64,000 nt of DNA from Candidatus Liminaster caballi (GTDB taxonomy: Bacteria; Bacteroidota; Bacteroidia; Bacteroidales; UBA3663), in contig JAGHUA010000005.1 of NCBI GenBank assembly GCA_018065085.1, positions 57,837-121,836 of the forward strand, in the 5' to 3' direction. Within the stretch, counting starts at the first letter, position 1. Every line of letters starts with the position of its first letter. Positions 56,328 to 63,692 of this stretch are shown here, one piece after another. The position numbers and the translations under genes are program-made. The notes under the pieces are model-generated. The model was not told the DNA's origin, ran no database searches, and saw nothing but the letters and a program-made list of their open reading frames with translations.

Positions 56328-56588
56328 ATGCTTTACAGAAAAATCAGCTCAGATATTGAGGCACATCGAATGACAGTCTTGCCCATTGAGGTGAAATCAG
56401 GCAAGGACTTCACTTCGCATAAGGCGCTTGACAAATTCCTGGCTGATAAAGAGTACAATATCCCATCTGGCATTGTACTTGATAATGAACGTGAAGTATA
56501 TACAAAAGACAATGTTACCTACATGCCCATTTATTACATAATGTGCATAGAGCGAGCTGAAATCCCAGAAGGTGACTGCACCTTCTGA
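56328..56588 (+). pseudogene. C-terminal remnant of a DUF4143-type AAA ATPase
   Basis: VLPIEVKSGKDFTSHKALDKFLADKEYNIPSGIVLDNEREVYTKDNVTYMPIYYI is the C-terminal nuclease-like part only; no P-loop upstream. Confidence 0.7.
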
Positions 56589-56897: not shown

Positions 56898-58481
56898 TCA
56901 TTTTATTATCTCCCAGTGTCCACCAAAATTACCACCTTCTCGTTTGATGACTCCAAGCTCTTTCATGCGTTTCAGGTCTCTCTTGATAGACTTTGTTGAT
57001 ACAGATAACTTGCTTGCGAGCGACTCCACCGTTTCCACAGCAAAATCAGAGCCATCATCTGGGACATTGTTGGGGACATTGTTGGGGACATTCAATTTAA
57101 TAATACCATATATAACTCTTTGACGTTCAGTTAATTTGTCCAGGACATTGTTAGGGACATTTTCTAGGACATTTTCAGCTTCCACATCCCTTTCCTTACC
57201 TATTTTCTTCAGGTATGCATCTTCGTTGATGAATGCTTCGTGTATCTTGATTGTGGCGAGAAAATACTGATTATGCTCGTCTGTATCGAACTCTGGCAAA
57301 GGGGAGTCATTGTTCTTCAACGCCCGATAAATCTTTGGGAAGCCCGTAGAGCGTCCCTCTGTGATGTGCAATTCCTTCAGGAAATCGCCAATACGCCTGT
57401 TCCTGTACGAACGATTAATGACCTTCTCCTTCTGCAAATCAGCATTCGTGATAGGAGGAGTAGGTCCAGCCAGATTGTAAACCTCTATGCTGTCCTTGTT
57501 AATGCGAATCTCAATAGGGTTTCGGTCATCCCACGACTTGTGGAATATGGCATTCGCCACCACTTCTTCCAAGGCTTGATACGGATAGTTCCATACACGT
57601 ACAGCTTCCGACTCGCCCTTCACTTTCATCACTTTCTCCACGAGCATCTCGTTGAGGTAACGCATAGCCTCCTCGTACTGCAAATGTATGGGACCATGCA
57701 GCACCTTTTCGTCAAAGTGATCGCCCACTTCGTCATGGAAGTGTACTATCTCGATCCTTGCGTATGGAATGTACTCCTCTGCTTTTCGCGAGAAGAACAG
57801 CAAACCAACATTCTTTGGCTTAAAGAACTCTGTTGAACCGCTGGCGATGTGCATTGAACGGCAGATCTCTTCCATCGACATGCGTTCAAGGTCGCTCTCC
57901 GTAATGCTACTGCCAACACGATTCAGGTAGTCGCCAATCAGCAACTTGCTCATATCCGTAATGGATGCTTGATGGCAGATGCGGTCATCAAACGGAACCT
58001 TGGCCGCAAGCGAAATGAGCTGTTGTTCTTCCACTTCATTCGCCTGACGAGTCACCGATGTCTGACGCACATAATACACCTTTCCCCTTTGCTCTTCCGA
58101 CTTACCGAGGTGAATCGGACATTTATAAGGGCGCGTGTCACCACCAGGAACATAAATCACCAGAATCATCTTGCCCATGTACTCCACGGGTTCGGATACA
58201 ATGGTCACATACGGTTCCACCTTGAACGTGAGTTTCACCAGATCCTTCTGTATATCATCAAGCACATGCAGATTCACCCCTACAGGTGGCAGCACAGGAA
58301 CACCATCTTGTTCCTTTACCCCAACCACAATGTAACCACCGCCCCAGTTGTGTATGTCGTTGGCAAAGGCGCACATAGAGTGTATCACGTCCTCTGGATT
58401 CCATCCTTCTTTGAAGTCCAGACGTTCCCATTCCACGATGTTGCCTTCCAGCAGCTGTTTTATGCTTATTGGTAATGCCAT
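56898..58481 (-). CDS. AlbA_2 domain ATP-binding / putative transcriptional regulator (Schlafen-like AlbA_2, HATPase_c_4-like, wHTH)
   Basis: N-term EGNIVEWERLDFKEGWNPEDVIHSMCAFANDIHNWGGGYIVVGVKEQ; EEVVANAIFHKSWDDRNPIEIRINKDSIEVYNLAGP; C-term wHTH SLASKLSVSTKSIKRDLKRMKELGVIKREG. Confidence 0.9.
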   Translation of the reverse strand: MALPISIKQLLEGNIVEWERLDFKEGWNPEDVIHSMCAFANDIHNWGGGYIVVGVKEQDGVPVLPPVGVNLHVLDDIQKDLVKLTFKVEPYVTIVSEPVEYMGKMILVIYVPGGDTRPYKCPIHLGKSEEQRGKVYYVRQTSVTRQANEVEEQQLISLAAKVPFDDRICHQASITDMSKLLIGDYLNRVGSSITESDLERMSMEEICRSMHIASGSTEFFKPKNVGLLFFSRKAEEYIPYARIEIVHFHDEVGDHFDEKVLHGPIHLQYEEAMRYLNEMLVEKVMKVKGESEAVRVWNYPYQALEEVVANAIFHKSWDDRNPIEIRINKDSIEVYNLAGPTPPITNADLQKEKVINRSYRNRRIGDFLKELHITEGRSTGFPKIYRALKNNDSPLPEFDTDEHNQYFLATIKIHEAFINEDAYLKKIGKERDVEAENVLENVPNNVLDKLTERQRVIYGIIKLNVPNNVPNNVPDDGSDFAVETVESLASKLSVSTKSIKRDLKRMKELGVIKREGGNFGGHWEIIK

Positions 58482-58622: not shown

Positions 58623-59308
58623 TCATTTGAGAAATTCCCAATAACCCCCATTGTCAGGACCATTTCTTCTGACAATACCCTTTTCTTGCAAATCTTTTAT
58701 TCTCGTTGCAATCGTTTGGCGAGATTTTCCTATCTGTTCAGCCATCTTTGTAGTTGTGACGAATTTATCAGACTCTATTAACTCAACAATTTTTCTGCCT
58801 GTATCTGTAAGATTTCTGTAAAGTTTCTGTAAAGTTTCTGTAAAGTCACCTTTCTGACCACCTTTCTGACCACCCTGTACATTAATCTCTTCAACATCAT
58901 CACCATTACTTACATAGACGCCTTCGATACCATCCACATTGAACTTGGGCAATGTCAAGACAAAACTATCCCATGGGGTTGAGAAAGTAGGATCTAGGCC
59001 ATCCTTGTAGCCTTCATGTTCTTTATAGGCAGAAAAAATCTTCTTAAAACCAGAACCTCTACGTTCCATGTACTTCAAGCGATTGAATACATCAGCCAAA
59101 ACTGGATTTCTACGACGAGAGGCCATGTTCATCACATCCATATCCTTGATAGAACCGCCATCCATGAGACCACCAGGAGAGTATATCTCAAGCCGGTCGT
59201 CATACATGTCAATATGCACCAGCTCTTCGGCTTCTTTACCTCCAGAGCCTGCTTCTTATCGTATTCTGTTGCTTCGCCTATCAGTTGGCGTATATCATCT
59301 TCGTTCAT
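58623..59308 (-). pseudogene. AlbA_2-type ATP-binding regulator with internal deletion/frameshift
   Basis: ATG at 59308 encodes MNEDDIRQLIGEATEYDKKQALEVKKPKSW, then the sequence switches frame into HIDMYDDRLEIYSPGGLMDG...GGYWEFLK (ORF 58623..59219). Confidence 0.7.
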
Positions 59309-59429: not shown

Positions 59430-62400
59430 TTAGCAAGAAAGTACAACGTCATTAATTTTTCGATTACCTCCTACATATATTTGTTCTTCGAATAAATTTA
59501 ATAAACGATTAATACTTTCAAAATCTTCATCCTCTTTCAAACATTTGTATATCATAAGCAAAATTTCTGTTATTTCTTCATCGACAAAATGTGGAATCTC
59601 GCTATCATCATAATTTTGTGATTGTATGAAATTCAGACATTCTTGCGGATAAATAATGATACATTCTTTGATGTATTTCAATTCGTCAGAAACATCTCGG
59701 AACCTATTTGCCTTGAAGCAAGAATATATCTCAACAAAAAAGTCAAAAGCATCTACGGGAAGTTCTTTTGCGTGCCAGCAATATGCATGTATGACATTTT
59801 CACGTCCATCATTAGAAAACCTTCTAAGGTATTTTTCGCATAGGTGCGTATATTCTTTATGCTTATAATTCTTTAGACATACTTTTACTATGTCAGCTAT
59901 AACCTCTTCTTCATTTAAACTAAGAAGTCTTTCAAATCGTCCTTTGCATTCATCAGTTCTATTAGGAACCGTAAGCCCATAGAAATATATTTCTGCAAGA
60001 ATCTTATGAGCATGCGTGTCAAGTTCAATTTGATTAACAAATCCCGTTACTATTTCAGGGTAGTGATACCAATAATACTGAATGGCATGAACACAGAGGA
60101 ATAATGCCTCAGAAGATAAGTTCTTAATATACGTAAAAAAGGTTTGTTTTGTCAGTTCTTTGTCATAGTACCTATTGTCAAAGATATAGTGCACAACCAA
60201 AAGACGTGTGTCTTCTGTGATTAATGGTTCCATTTCATTTAGCAATTTGTACCCAAAACTTTTACGTTGTTCTATCCCACACAATTTAATAAGCATTTCA
60301 ATAGACCTTCCCTGGTAGCTATTCATGGCTTTTGTAAGTTTGCCATTCACTCGCTTTTCTAGTTCATCAGAACCAACCATAGGGGTATATCCATTGCTAA
60401 CTTCTTCTGGGAGGATTGCAACTGACTTCAAAAAAGGAACTATCTCATCAATAATTTTGTTATCATGTATAAAGTAATGCCGCATAATATCTGTAAAGTC
60501 ATGAGGATTGTTCTTTACAAACTTCACATCTAAGAATTGTTTAACAAAAGGCCAAACTATGCTAGGTTCCATGCCTCCTTCAAGAAGCCCTTTTGCCCCT
60601 TCAATCTTATACATCATTTTGATAGAGTCAGTTACAAACAATTCAGAAATAAAGGATAAGTATCTTCTTGGATTCTTACTAACACATTCCTTAAACATCC
60701 TTGCATTTACGCGTATGTCAATGGGGGGTCTGTTGTGATACCAATGATTATCATTCACAGCAAACAAGTCAAGCCATCTCGAAAATGACAAGTTTGTGTA
60801 CTGTTCTTCTCGTAAAGAACCTCCACATATTTCTGCCATATGTACATTGTGATCAGGTTTTTCTAACACATATGGAGTATTATAGTATCGTCGATTTAAT
60901 TCTTGGCGACACCTTTTTAGCTTTGCACCATCTACTTTCTCTGGGAGGGTAACAGAAACTAACTTCCATTTATTGTACCACATAAAAGGATACAGAATTC
61001 TGTCAAATTCTCTATGTTTGTTTGGGAGATTATCTTTTTTGCTTTGAAAATTTAGAATTAAATCCTCATACCAAGTTCTTTGTATGGAGTCTTGAACAAG
61101 ATACCAATTTCTTAGTAGAACCAAGAAGTAGTATTCAATGTCCCAAGACAGATAAGAATCCATTTTTTCAGAATCTCTTAATATGCATAGGATTTCATCA
61201 TTATACATCAAAGGATTTAAAGACATTATTTCAAAGGCCAAACATACTGCGCACTCATCGTTAGTCATATAGAGATCCTTGACCATCGCTTTTATCATGT
61301 CCTTATGAGATGAATACCGAACAAGCAATTCCTTATATATATCGAATAGTTTCCTATCATAGTCTGCTATGTTATGCCCAAAAACTTCGTTCAAAGTAAA
61401 TTCATCCAGATAATATGGCTTACTTTTCTTGACAACAACGGTCAGAAATACACGATGAAACATGATTAGATATTCCATTGAGCATTCTTCTACCAACTTC
61501 TTGCACAAATCCTCGACTAAAACATATGAATCATGTTTGTTGCCTTGATCATCATTTCTCAAAAGATAATCCAGTATTAACCTCTCTGATTCAGAGAATA
61601 CGAATTCCTTGTTTGTTTGCAATGCATCAATCAGAGCATGAATATAGAAATGAAAATCAAGATTGGAAGACGATAACGCTTCTCTTACAAACGTCCTACG
61701 ATAATCATTATGTCCCCTTAATACAAAATTCAAGAAATACGAACGAACAGCCTCGTCATCATTCTTATTGATAATCTCAAACACTTCTTTTGCATATTTA
61801 AAAGAAGCGACAGACAGATAATTTGCGACAGGATATAGCAATTCCGTTTTTTGGTTAACAGAACCTACCAAAGACAACACAATAGGTTTTAAGGTAATAA
61901 ACCATTTATCATTACGAACGCCACGCAAGAAAAAAGATAGACACTTCATATCCTTATTGCATGCATCGTAAACAATTTCGCGTTCACATGTAGAAATGTC
62001 TTCTGACATTGCGATAAGCGAAAGCGTCAAAAACTTAATGTGTTCTCTTATTTTTGATGAAATGAGTATCAACCGTAAATCGTTGGAATACTTGTCAAGA
62101 TCATGCTCTTTATCAAATTCTAGAACAGCTTTAACGGTTGAGCGTATTTCTAATCCTTGGAAGTCTTTTTGAATTTGGTCAAAGAAGCTACCTTCCTTAC
62201 TTGTAAACAATCGTGCAAGAGTATAATCATAGAATGCCTGGTGGAAAAACGAGCAACTCATATTTTGCAGCAAGACAACATGATTACTAGCCAAATAATT
62301 CAATACAATTCTTTCTTTGTCATCACTTGAGATAATCGGAGACAAAGTTTTTTGGTTAAGTGCCGAATCTGCAATCTTGAATAGAGCTTTTTCTATACTA

Positions 62401-63692
62401 CCTGGGGTTATTGCTTCTGGAGCATTATCAACAAGTATTTTCCACAACTCATCGTATAACTGATGAGCATTTCTATAATTTATTTTTAGGCTTTTTTTGC
62501 GATGGACTAAACAGAATAGGTTCAATAGATGTGCCGTCTGTAATAGCTTTATTGTTTGAACATCAAGTTTGTCAAATATACCATTGCACAGCATATCAAC
62601 TATACTTTTGACCTCTTCTTTAGATATATTTCCAAGTTCTATTAGTTTTGCATTATCAGATAAGGAATGCAATTTGCTGTCATATTCAAGATCATATTTC
62701 CGACAAGATACAACGATCCTAATGTCATTATATTCTCTTAACTTTGATAGCAAAGTAATAAACAAATTGATTTTGCCTCTGTCATTTGTGAGATATTGAG
62801 AAAGAGCGTCTATTTGATCGATTACAACCACAAGCAATCGTTGATCAGCCTTGACATACTGGATAAGGCTAATCAATTTATCTAACTTCATGTCTTCACT
62901 CATCAAATTAAGGCAATCTGCTTTAATACACATGGTTTTGACATTCCGTTTATCGAGTTCTTCTATTAAATCCTTAATGACTACCGATTTGCCAACGCCT
63001 GCATGTCCTTGTAAAACACAAAGATTTGCTTGATTATCAACTAATGGCTCATTAGTCCAATCGAGCAACTCTTCAACTTCACGTCTTCTAATATGCGATT
63101 CTGGAAGACCATAAAACAAAGGATTAATAATTGCAAAAGGGACTCTATTTGTCTCTATAAACTGTTCAGACAAATACTTCTCATCTTTGAATGAAAGCAT
63201 TTTGTCGTCAAAGATTTTCTTCCATAAAGCCAAAGTCTGTGACAGACATTCTTTGTCACATTTCTCTGATTGAGTAAAATGGTATCTTTGACTTTGCTGA
63301 CATTCATTTGGTAGATTAATAAAATCTTGTATTGCATTTGAATCTATATATCTCCTATAGAACGTTTCATTATCAGTATCACATGCTACAAATATAACTA
63401 CCTCACCTCTGTTTAAATTTGCGTAAGCAAACACCTCGTTTGGGATATCATAATATGCATCAGATTCTGTTGAATGATATGTCATATGCTTAACTTGAAC
63501 TGTTATTTTTGCTTCCATAACATCGTCATTATTTAACAGTTCAAGGTAACCATCAATCATAGGCAGATTGCCTCCTCTTTCTAATCTCTCCTTCACTCCA
63601 TGTTTGAAGAAAAGATTTTGTAACAGGAGAATGCTGCCATAATCTAATTCATCAGATTTATAGGTTGACTTTTTTAATACTAACTTGGCCAT
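59430..63692 (-). CDS. 1420-aa P-loop NTPase with possible nuclease-like N-terminus and long helical C-terminus (STAND/Avs-like candidate)
   Basis: Walker A LQGHAGVGKSVVIKDL; Walker B LLVVVIDQIDALSQYL; RIVVSCRKYDLEYD; STAND-like SFFHQAFYDYTLARLF; N-term DGYLELL...KITVQVKHMTY. Confidence 0.75.
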   Translation of the reverse strand: MAKLVLKKSTYKSDELDYGSILLLQNLFFKHGVKERLERGGNLPMIDGYLELLNNDDVMEAKITVQVKHMTYHSTESDAYYDIPNEVFAYANLNRGEVVIFVACDTDNETFYRRYIDSNAIQDFINLPNECQQSQRYHFTQSEKCDKECLSQTLALWKKIFDDKMLSFKDEKYLSEQFIETNRVPFAIINPLFYGLPESHIRRREVEELLDWTNEPLVDNQANLCVLQGHAGVGKSVVIKDLIEELDKRNVKTMCIKADCLNLMSEDMKLDKLISLIQYVKADQRLLVVVIDQIDALSQYLTNDRGKINLFITLLSKLREYNDIRIVVSCRKYDLEYDSKLHSLSDNAKLIELGNISKEEVKSIVDMLCNGIFDKLDVQTIKLLQTAHLLNLFCLVHRKKSLKINYRNAHQLYDELWKILVDNAPEAITPGSIEKALFKIADSALNQKTLSPIISSDDKERIVLNYLASNHVVLLQNMSCSFFHQAFYDYTLARLFTSKEGSFFDQIQKDFQGLEIRSTVKAVLEFDKEHDLDKYSNDLRLILISSKIREHIKFLTLSLIAMSEDISTCEREIVYDACNKDMKCLSFFLRGVRNDKWFITLKPIVLSLVGSVNQKTELLYPVANYLSVASFKYAKEVFEIINKNDDEAVRSYFLNFVLRGHNDYRRTFVREALSSSNLDFHFYIHALIDALQTNKEFVFSESERLILDYLLRNDDQGNKHDSYVLVEDLCKKLVEECSMEYLIMFHRVFLTVVVKKSKPYYLDEFTLNEVFGHNIADYDRKLFDIYKELLVRYSSHKDMIKAMVKDLYMTNDECAVCLAFEIMSLNPLMYNDEILCILRDSEKMDSYLSWDIEYYFLVLLRNWYLVQDSIQRTWYEDLILNFQSKKDNLPNKHREFDRILYPFMWYNKWKLVSVTLPEKVDGAKLKRCRQELNRRYYNTPYVLEKPDHNVHMAEICGGSLREEQYTNLSFSRWLDLFAVNDNHWYHNRPPIDIRVNARMFKECVSKNPRRYLSFISELFVTDSIKMMYKIEGAKGLLEGGMEPSIVWPFVKQFLDVKFVKNNPHDFTDIMRHYFIHDNKIIDEIVPFLKSVAILPEEVSNGYTPMVGSDELEKRVNGKLTKAMNSYQGRSIEMLIKLCGIEQRKSFGYKLLNEMEPLITEDTRLLVVHYIFDNRYYDKELTKQTFFTYIKNLSSEALFLCVHAIQYYWYHYPEIVTGFVNQIELDTHAHKILAEIYFYGLTVPNRTDECKGRFERLLSLNEEEVIADIVKVCLKNYKHKEYTHLCEKYLRRFSNDGRENVIHAYCWHAKELPVDAFDFFVEIYSCFKANRFRDVSDELKYIKECIIIYPQECLNFIQSQNYDDSEIPHFVDEEITEILLMIYKCLKEDEDFESINRLLNLFEEQIYVGGNRKINDVVLSC

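Follow-up and report, generated by a model that had tools for sequence, protein, structure and literature searches.

Which kind of protein does the long gene near the end of a contig of the Bacteroidales bacterium Candidatus Liminaster caballi encode, and in what process might it act? The stretch of DNA analyzed here, referred to as the window, comprises 64,000 nucleotides (positions 57,837 to 121,836 of contig JAGHUA010000005.1, assembly GCA_018065085.1) and contains, on its minus strand at positions 59430 to 63692, an intact open reading frame (ORF) of 1,420 amino acids with an ATG start, the product of which we call P0001. An initial annotation had proposed that this ORF encodes an Avs-like immune ATPase of the STAND type with a nuclease-like N terminus. 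The ORF itself was readily confirmed, its length being far above that of the longest open stretch (173 codons) in 300 shuffles of DNA of the same composition, and the motifs quoted for it, from an N-terminal D...QVK (D47, Q66, and K68) to the Walker A, Walker B, sensor-like, and winged-helix segments (Table 1), are all present. In our assessment, P0001 is very probably a single-gene, Avs-like STAND immune protein, in which sensing of a cue would lead to oligomerization and, by way of a nuclease domain known as DREN, to destruction of nucleic acids and to cell death or arrest.

A predicted DUF4365/DREN nuclease at the N terminus

There is a strong case that residues 1 to 140 form a DUF4365-family PD-(D/E)XK nuclease with a predicted active site, since Pfam matches, fold, the invariant spacing of three residues, profile comparison, and a PADLOC match agree. 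DUF4365 is called DREN where it serves as the effector of SPARDA short-Argonaute systems (PMC12205087). The corresponding Pfam model (PF14280) is matched by six of eight homologs of P0001; the ortholog L016, whose N terminus is 80% identical to that of P0001, scores 27.4 bits (gathering score, 24.3), and the other orthologs score 17 to 21 bits. The same ortholog matches the Argonaute-associated restriction endonuclease model of PADLOC (E value, 3.8e-5).

The D47-x18-Q66-x-K68 signature is invariant in all eight homologs, and its spacing (19+2) is identical to that of D41, Q60, and K62, the proven catalytic residues of NbaDREN from Nba-SPARDA (PMC12205087); Q62 and K64 are the predicted catalytic counterparts in TmuRE (PMC10810196). 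When eight DUF4365 proteins collected independently from other Bacteroidota were aligned, D, Q, and K were the sole invariant columns, with the same spacing, and a D...Q-x-K pattern arose in only 2 of 20,000 column shuffles. Alignment of the homolog N termini with this independent set by hhalign gave an E value of 5.5e-9 and a score of 59, a score that was reached by none of 100 column shuffles (best, 21), while seven slices of the C-terminal region stayed below 12.

The AlphaFold2 model of the effector (pLDDT, 77; pTM, 0.74) shows the order helix-strand-strand-strand-helix-strand. When it was compared with the PDB by Foldseek, ranks 1 to 14 were all SPARDA complexes, and the target lengths point to DREN as the subunit matched. 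Next came I-Ssp6803I, a homing endonuclease that is likewise named as a relative of DREN in the SPARDA study (PMC12205087). Among viral structure models, the first match was a phage protein named DUF4365. The nuclease fold anticipated by the initial annotation is thereby borne out; of the two families that it had offered for comparison, DUF4365 stands, whereas DUF4297 gave no match, and a DUF4297/Cap4 nuclease was rejected.

A STAND NTPase followed by a helical sensor

The central part of P0001 passes the nSTAND1 model (31.8 bits; cut-off, 27.1), whereas the NACHT model of Pfam (21.7 bits; gathering score, 26.7) as well as nSTAND3 and nSTAND5 remained below threshold. Walker A, Walker B, the sensor arginine, and the winged-helix signature are intact, with the key residues invariant in all seven aligned orthologs. 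The sole notable sequence match in the PDB was entry 9n00, a 1,523-amino-acid "AAA family ATPase" (residues 224 to 600; E value, 1e-6), for which a literature search found no paper. A housekeeping AAA+ ATPase was considered and rejected: NCBIfam yielded only DnaA/Orc-type models below their cut-offs, and STAND models and Avs/NLR folds fitted better, as had been expected of this ATPase from the outset.

Beyond the NTPase and winged-helix region, the AlphaFold2 model of residues 196 to 1395 is all helical, in line with the helical C terminus initially suggested. In the PDB, portal-bound Avs4 (8dgf) took the first two ranks for this model of NTPase plus sensor (E values, 1.1e-11 and 1.3e-10), bovine NLRP9 came next, and NLRC4 and the NACHT domain of NLRP3 were within the top 30; most of the remaining ranks were generic helical-repeat proteins.

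Relatives, selection, and exchange of effectors

In a single scan covering 84,980 species genomes, eight related loci (L016 to L023) were recovered, all in Bacteroidales. Over its full length, L016 is 61% identical to P0001; L017, L018, L020, and L021 are likewise full length and 36 to 38% identical, and L019 (40%) has its C terminus cut near a contig end. Of L022, also at a contig end, only the first 200 residues are available, and L023 retains, as a remnant, no more than residues 1 to 52. Its distribution marks the gene as rare and accessory: within the genus it occurs in 1 of 15 genomes, i.e., in the source genome alone; within the order, the full-length form is present in 2 of 393 genomes; and among 295 genomes of the class, the source genome alone has the DREN version. 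A search for the DUF4365 family in 41 genomes (the source genome and 40 relatives) returned one weak match, an ortholog already found. Purifying selection acts on the orthologs (dN/dS, 0.23 for L017 versus L021 and 0.12 for L018 versus L021), and the gene is therefore probably functional.

According to profile comparison, NTPase and sensor are shared with proteins that have other N termini. In L026 (1,518 amino acids), the alignment of this chassis extends up to residue 1407 (E value, 1.7e-56), preceded by an N terminus with a nuclease-like GRD...QCK pattern, as read by eye; NTPase and sensor are also shared by L033 (E value, 5e-40) and by L035 (E value, 3.8e-50), the latter with only about 50 residues ahead of the NTPase. 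Only residues 193 to 648 are shared with L028, and plasmid-borne relatives of the NTPase carry SEFIR and caspase annotations. Because the same NTPase-sensor chassis bears other N termini, effectors are swapped on it. STAND immune proteins typically exchange effectors on a constant chassis.

Some further relatives were noted in passing. On the Segatella copri plasmid NZ_CP085933.1 (L056), a relative of the NTPase is annotated as a NACHT protein, has a DUF2971 gene ahead of it, and lies near a pair of genes, for an AAA ATPase and UvrD, resembling Gabija. In L034 (8069 to 12292), a related STAND gene is split by an in-frame TAA and looks like a decayed copy. As for the effector, L042, L044, and L055 were read as containing DUF4365-type domains in long frames with a Roc GTPase/COR-like region, so that ROCO proteins may be a further partner of DREN-like nucleases. 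In L049, L052, and L054, an N-terminal DUF4365-like domain seems to be followed by TPR- or HEAT-like repeats, with no P-loop within the sequence stretch examined.

Defense islands and insertion into hipBA

The genes surrounding the relatives are the classic company of defense islands. The L016 gene is preceded by a type III restriction-modification (R-M) operon and RloAB, with the type III Mod gene ending 37 bp upstream, in an island that also holds an HATPase_c_4 gene; an MjaI-type R-M pair lies upstream of the gene in L019, L021 adjoins two GmrSD genes, a phage-type integrase comes after the gene in L018, and a TIR gene follows the remnant in L023. Together with the modular effectors, these neighbors support the immune role proposed in the initial annotation, in which protection would presumably be directed against phages.

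In L017 (9563 to 15376) and L021 (9563 to 15364), the STAND gene is located exactly between hipB and hipA. The insert is flanked by two direct repeats of 79 to 80 bp, 89 to 91% identical, which are copies of the hipB/hipA junction, and because the repeat copies this junction, hipA keeps an intact start. In the hipBA operons of L022 and L058 to L060, which are closely related, the junction is empty, with no insertion, and the order in L022 is hipB-hipA-STAND. Although L017 and L021 belong to different genera, they have a 6.3-kb block in common that is 91% identical. Identity at third codon positions is near 100% for residues 41 to 400 but about 60 to 95% across the sensor (601 to 1420), so that synonymous divergence is close to zero in effector and NTPase and high in the sensor, which suggests, at the level of sequence comparison, recombination within the STAND gene with exchange of sensors or effectors.

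Comparison with known systems

Like Avs4 and, more generally, the antiviral AVAST NTPases Avs1 to Avs4 with their nuclease effectors, P0001 combines an N-terminal nuclease, a STAND NTPase, and a large helical C-terminal sensor in one chain, and portal-bound Avs4 is the best structural match of its NTPase and sensor; it differs in having DUF4365/DREN as its effector. The Avs2 model of PADLOC gave weak matches near the NTPase in two orthologs (E values, 3e-4 and 6e-4). P0001 is Avs-like by its deduced architecture and modeled fold, as initially claimed, but not a sequence-level member of Avs1 to Avs5.

With the DREN-APAZ protein of SPARDA, P0001 shares the nuclease domain, including the identical D-x18-Q-x-K spacing, but its nuclease is joined to a STAND NTPase and a helical sensor and not to RNA-guided DNA recognition. 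No APAZ domain was reported in P0001, and neither APAZ nor a short Argonaute was found among the neighbors scanned in the window and in relatives; in the window, the contig ends shortly upstream of the gene. The anti-phage proteins bNACHT25 and bNACHT32, clade 6 bacterial NLR-related proteins with a PD-(D/E)XK DNase (PMC12169576), resemble P0001 in the order N-terminal PD-(D/E)XK nuclease, NACHT/STAND NTPase, and helical C terminus; judged by domain models and layout, P0001 is set apart by passing nSTAND1 instead of NACHT and by its large C-terminal sensor. The phage defense candidate PDC-M54A of PADLOC matches the NTPase region of L020 (E value, 2.2e-8), of L018, and, strongly, of L026 (E value, 4e-13), but in the orthologs it covers only part of the NTPase, and P0001 itself had no match. 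Since a defining feature of each was looked for and found lacking, P0001 should not be filed under Avs1 to Avs5, SPARDA, or bNACHT.

Every module of P0001 is known; what is newly recognized here is that DUF4365/DREN is joined to a STAND NTPase. PADLOC has no model for this pairing, none of the ten papers found to mention DUF4365 is, as far as titles and abstracts tell, on STAND, and a literature search for both together returned an unrelated paper only. Because preprints and most subscription papers were outside this search, priority is not proven.

Proposed mechanism and alternative explanations

In the mechanism that we propose, the C-terminal helical repeats would serve to detect infection, most likely by binding a conserved phage protein, and this binding would relieve autoinhibition. 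On ATP binding, the STAND domain would oligomerize, probably into a tetramer. Avs3 and Avs4 form tetramers. The oligomer would bring the N-terminal DREN nucleases together, and, once assembled, these would cleave DNA, and perhaps also RNA, irrespective of sequence, such that the infected cell would die or stop growing ahead of phage release. The initial steps follow what has been described for Avs, in which binding of phage proteins to the C-terminal sensor makes the STAND domain oligomerize in an ATP-dependent manner, and cells are killed by nuclease effectors (PMC12931631, PMC12724215). The requirement for tetramerization of DREN is taken from SPARDA, in which DREN on its own is monomeric and inactive and tetramerization switches on collateral cleavage (PMC12205087).

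Several observations weigh against this interpretation. With a pTM of 0.43 and a TM-score to Avs4 of 0.35, the NTPase-sensor model has modest overall quality and hence supports the fold class and not the detailed geometry; P0001 matched none of the Avs1 to Avs5 models of PADLOC at an E value of ≤1; no relative was present among 50,697 phage records, and none was confirmed in viral contigs; and the N terminus of P0001 itself falls below the reporting limit for DUF4365, though its close ortholog L016 passes. This last point would also suit a STAND regulator of host physiology (transcription or stress), with a degenerate DUF4365 domain that only binds nucleic acids, and some STAND proteins (MalT type) are regulators. 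Such a role is very improbable, however, for a gene that is rare, accessory, foreign in composition, and defense associated, and whose divergent orthologs all keep the three catalytic residues. Less far-fetched, but still unlikely, is a restriction-like enzyme, the NTPase and helical C terminus of which would recognize foreign (unmodified or plasmid) DNA directly for DUF4365 to cut, with no sensing of phage proteins and no killing of cells. DUF4365 does have a restriction endonuclease fold, and R-M genes do lie beside orthologs (type III in L016 and MjaI in L019), but they differ between loci, which fits a general defense island, and the STAND/winged-helix layout has its nearest folds in Avs4 and NLRs, not in helicase or McrB motors. 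Moreover, a DNA-recognizing restriction enzyme makes little sense because related NTPases bear SEFIR and caspase effectors, which are not nucleases.

The gene orders found in L017, L021, and L022 raise yet another possibility, namely, that in some hosts the STAND protein guards HipBA or is its addiction partner, being coexpressed with hipB and hipA, and monitors or amplifies the HipBA response instead of responding to a phage protein. In the stretches read around L016, L018, L019, and L020, though, no hipBA was recognized, and since the gene in L017 and L021 looks as if it had been inserted between direct repeats in an otherwise ordinary hipBA operon, the linkage more plausibly reflects an insertion site or a shared island; we give a partnership with HipBA hardly any credence.

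Beyond the single protein, an Avs-like immune role might extend to a DREN-STAND class, in which a protein-sensing, NLR-like chassis activates the collateral DNase/RNase of SPARDA through oligomerization and the gene also moves as a discrete cassette, e.g., into hipBA with regeneration of hipA, a generalization that we put forward tentatively and would not yet call probable. If it is true, the nucleic acids degraded by this STAND system would include DNA as well as RNA. P0001 itself connects two defense systems hitherto studied apart by way of one effector, as the SPARDA nuclease, described until now with Argonautes, also sits on an NLR-like receptor. If this is correct, the prediction would be that any scaffold gathering DREN domains suffices to unleash the nuclease. 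Bacteroidales also gain a receptor family with a conserved sensor, the phage ligand of which can be sought.

Sequence context of the gene

The features described are listed in Table 1.

Table 1. Coordinates, in the window, of P0001, its domains and motifs, and adjacent genes
Feature	Position	Strand	Basis or remark
DREN-STAND protein P0001, 1,420 aa	59430..63692	-	ORF; orthologs L016 to L021; purifying selection
DUF4365/DREN PD-(D/E)XK nuclease effector (predicted), residues 1-140	63273..63692	-	PF14280 in homologs, AlphaFold2, Foldseek, hhalign
Predicted catalytic metal ligand D47	63552..63554	-	Invariant in 8/8 homologs; equals NbaDREN D41
Predicted catalytic Q66-V-K68	63489..63497	-	Invariant in 8/8; equals NbaDREN Q60/K62 and TmuRE Q62/K64
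Long helix/linker from effector to NTPase, residues 141-198	63099..63272	-	AlphaFold2 secondary structure, helix 150-182
STAND NTPase with winged-helix region, residues 199-620	61833..63098	-	nSTAND1; conserved across relatives with other effectors
Walker A GHAGVGKS, residues 229-236	62985..63008	-	Motif
Walker B VVVIDQIDAL, residues 288-297	62802..62831	-	Motif
Sensor-1-type strand RIVVSCRKYDLEYD, residues 325-338, R331 invariant	62679..62720	-	Ortholog alignment
Winged-helix signature SFFHQAFYDYTLARLF, residues 481-496	62205..62252	-	Aligned to PDB chain 9n00_A
C-terminal helical-repeat sensor, residues 621-1420	59433..61832	-	AlphaFold2 all helical; PDB matches
HATPase_c_4 + helix-turn-helix gene (RecG C-terminal-like)	58623..59219	-	Downstream; start inside HATPase_c_4 domain, apparently truncated
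Schlafen AlbA_2 + HATPase_c_4 + helix-turn-helix gene	56898..58481	-	Downstream neighbor of P0001

Contig and window end together, 308 bp upstream of the P0001 start codon, and the upstream neighbor is therefore not visible. The locus had rightly been called AT rich, the G+C content of the STAND gene being 33.8%, versus 52.1% in window positions 1 to 56200. The "ATPase-gene debris" initially reported beside it was only partly correct, as the flanking genes are rather of the Schlafen/AlbA_2 and RecG C-terminal (HATPase_c_4) types; both are neighbors, the nearer one, as far as our data show, lying outside the system. The debris that was meant is probably a fragment at 56328 to 56588, which looks, by eye, like the C-terminal portion of an AAA ATPase of the archaeal type.

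No tRNA gene was found in the window, and this, together with the lack of relatives in phage records and viral contigs, led us to reject the idea of prophage cargo. A promoter scan returned sites no more numerous than in shuffled sequences. Terminator-like sites, in turn, numbered six, against a shuffle mean of 1.7, and all of them lie within the STAND gene.

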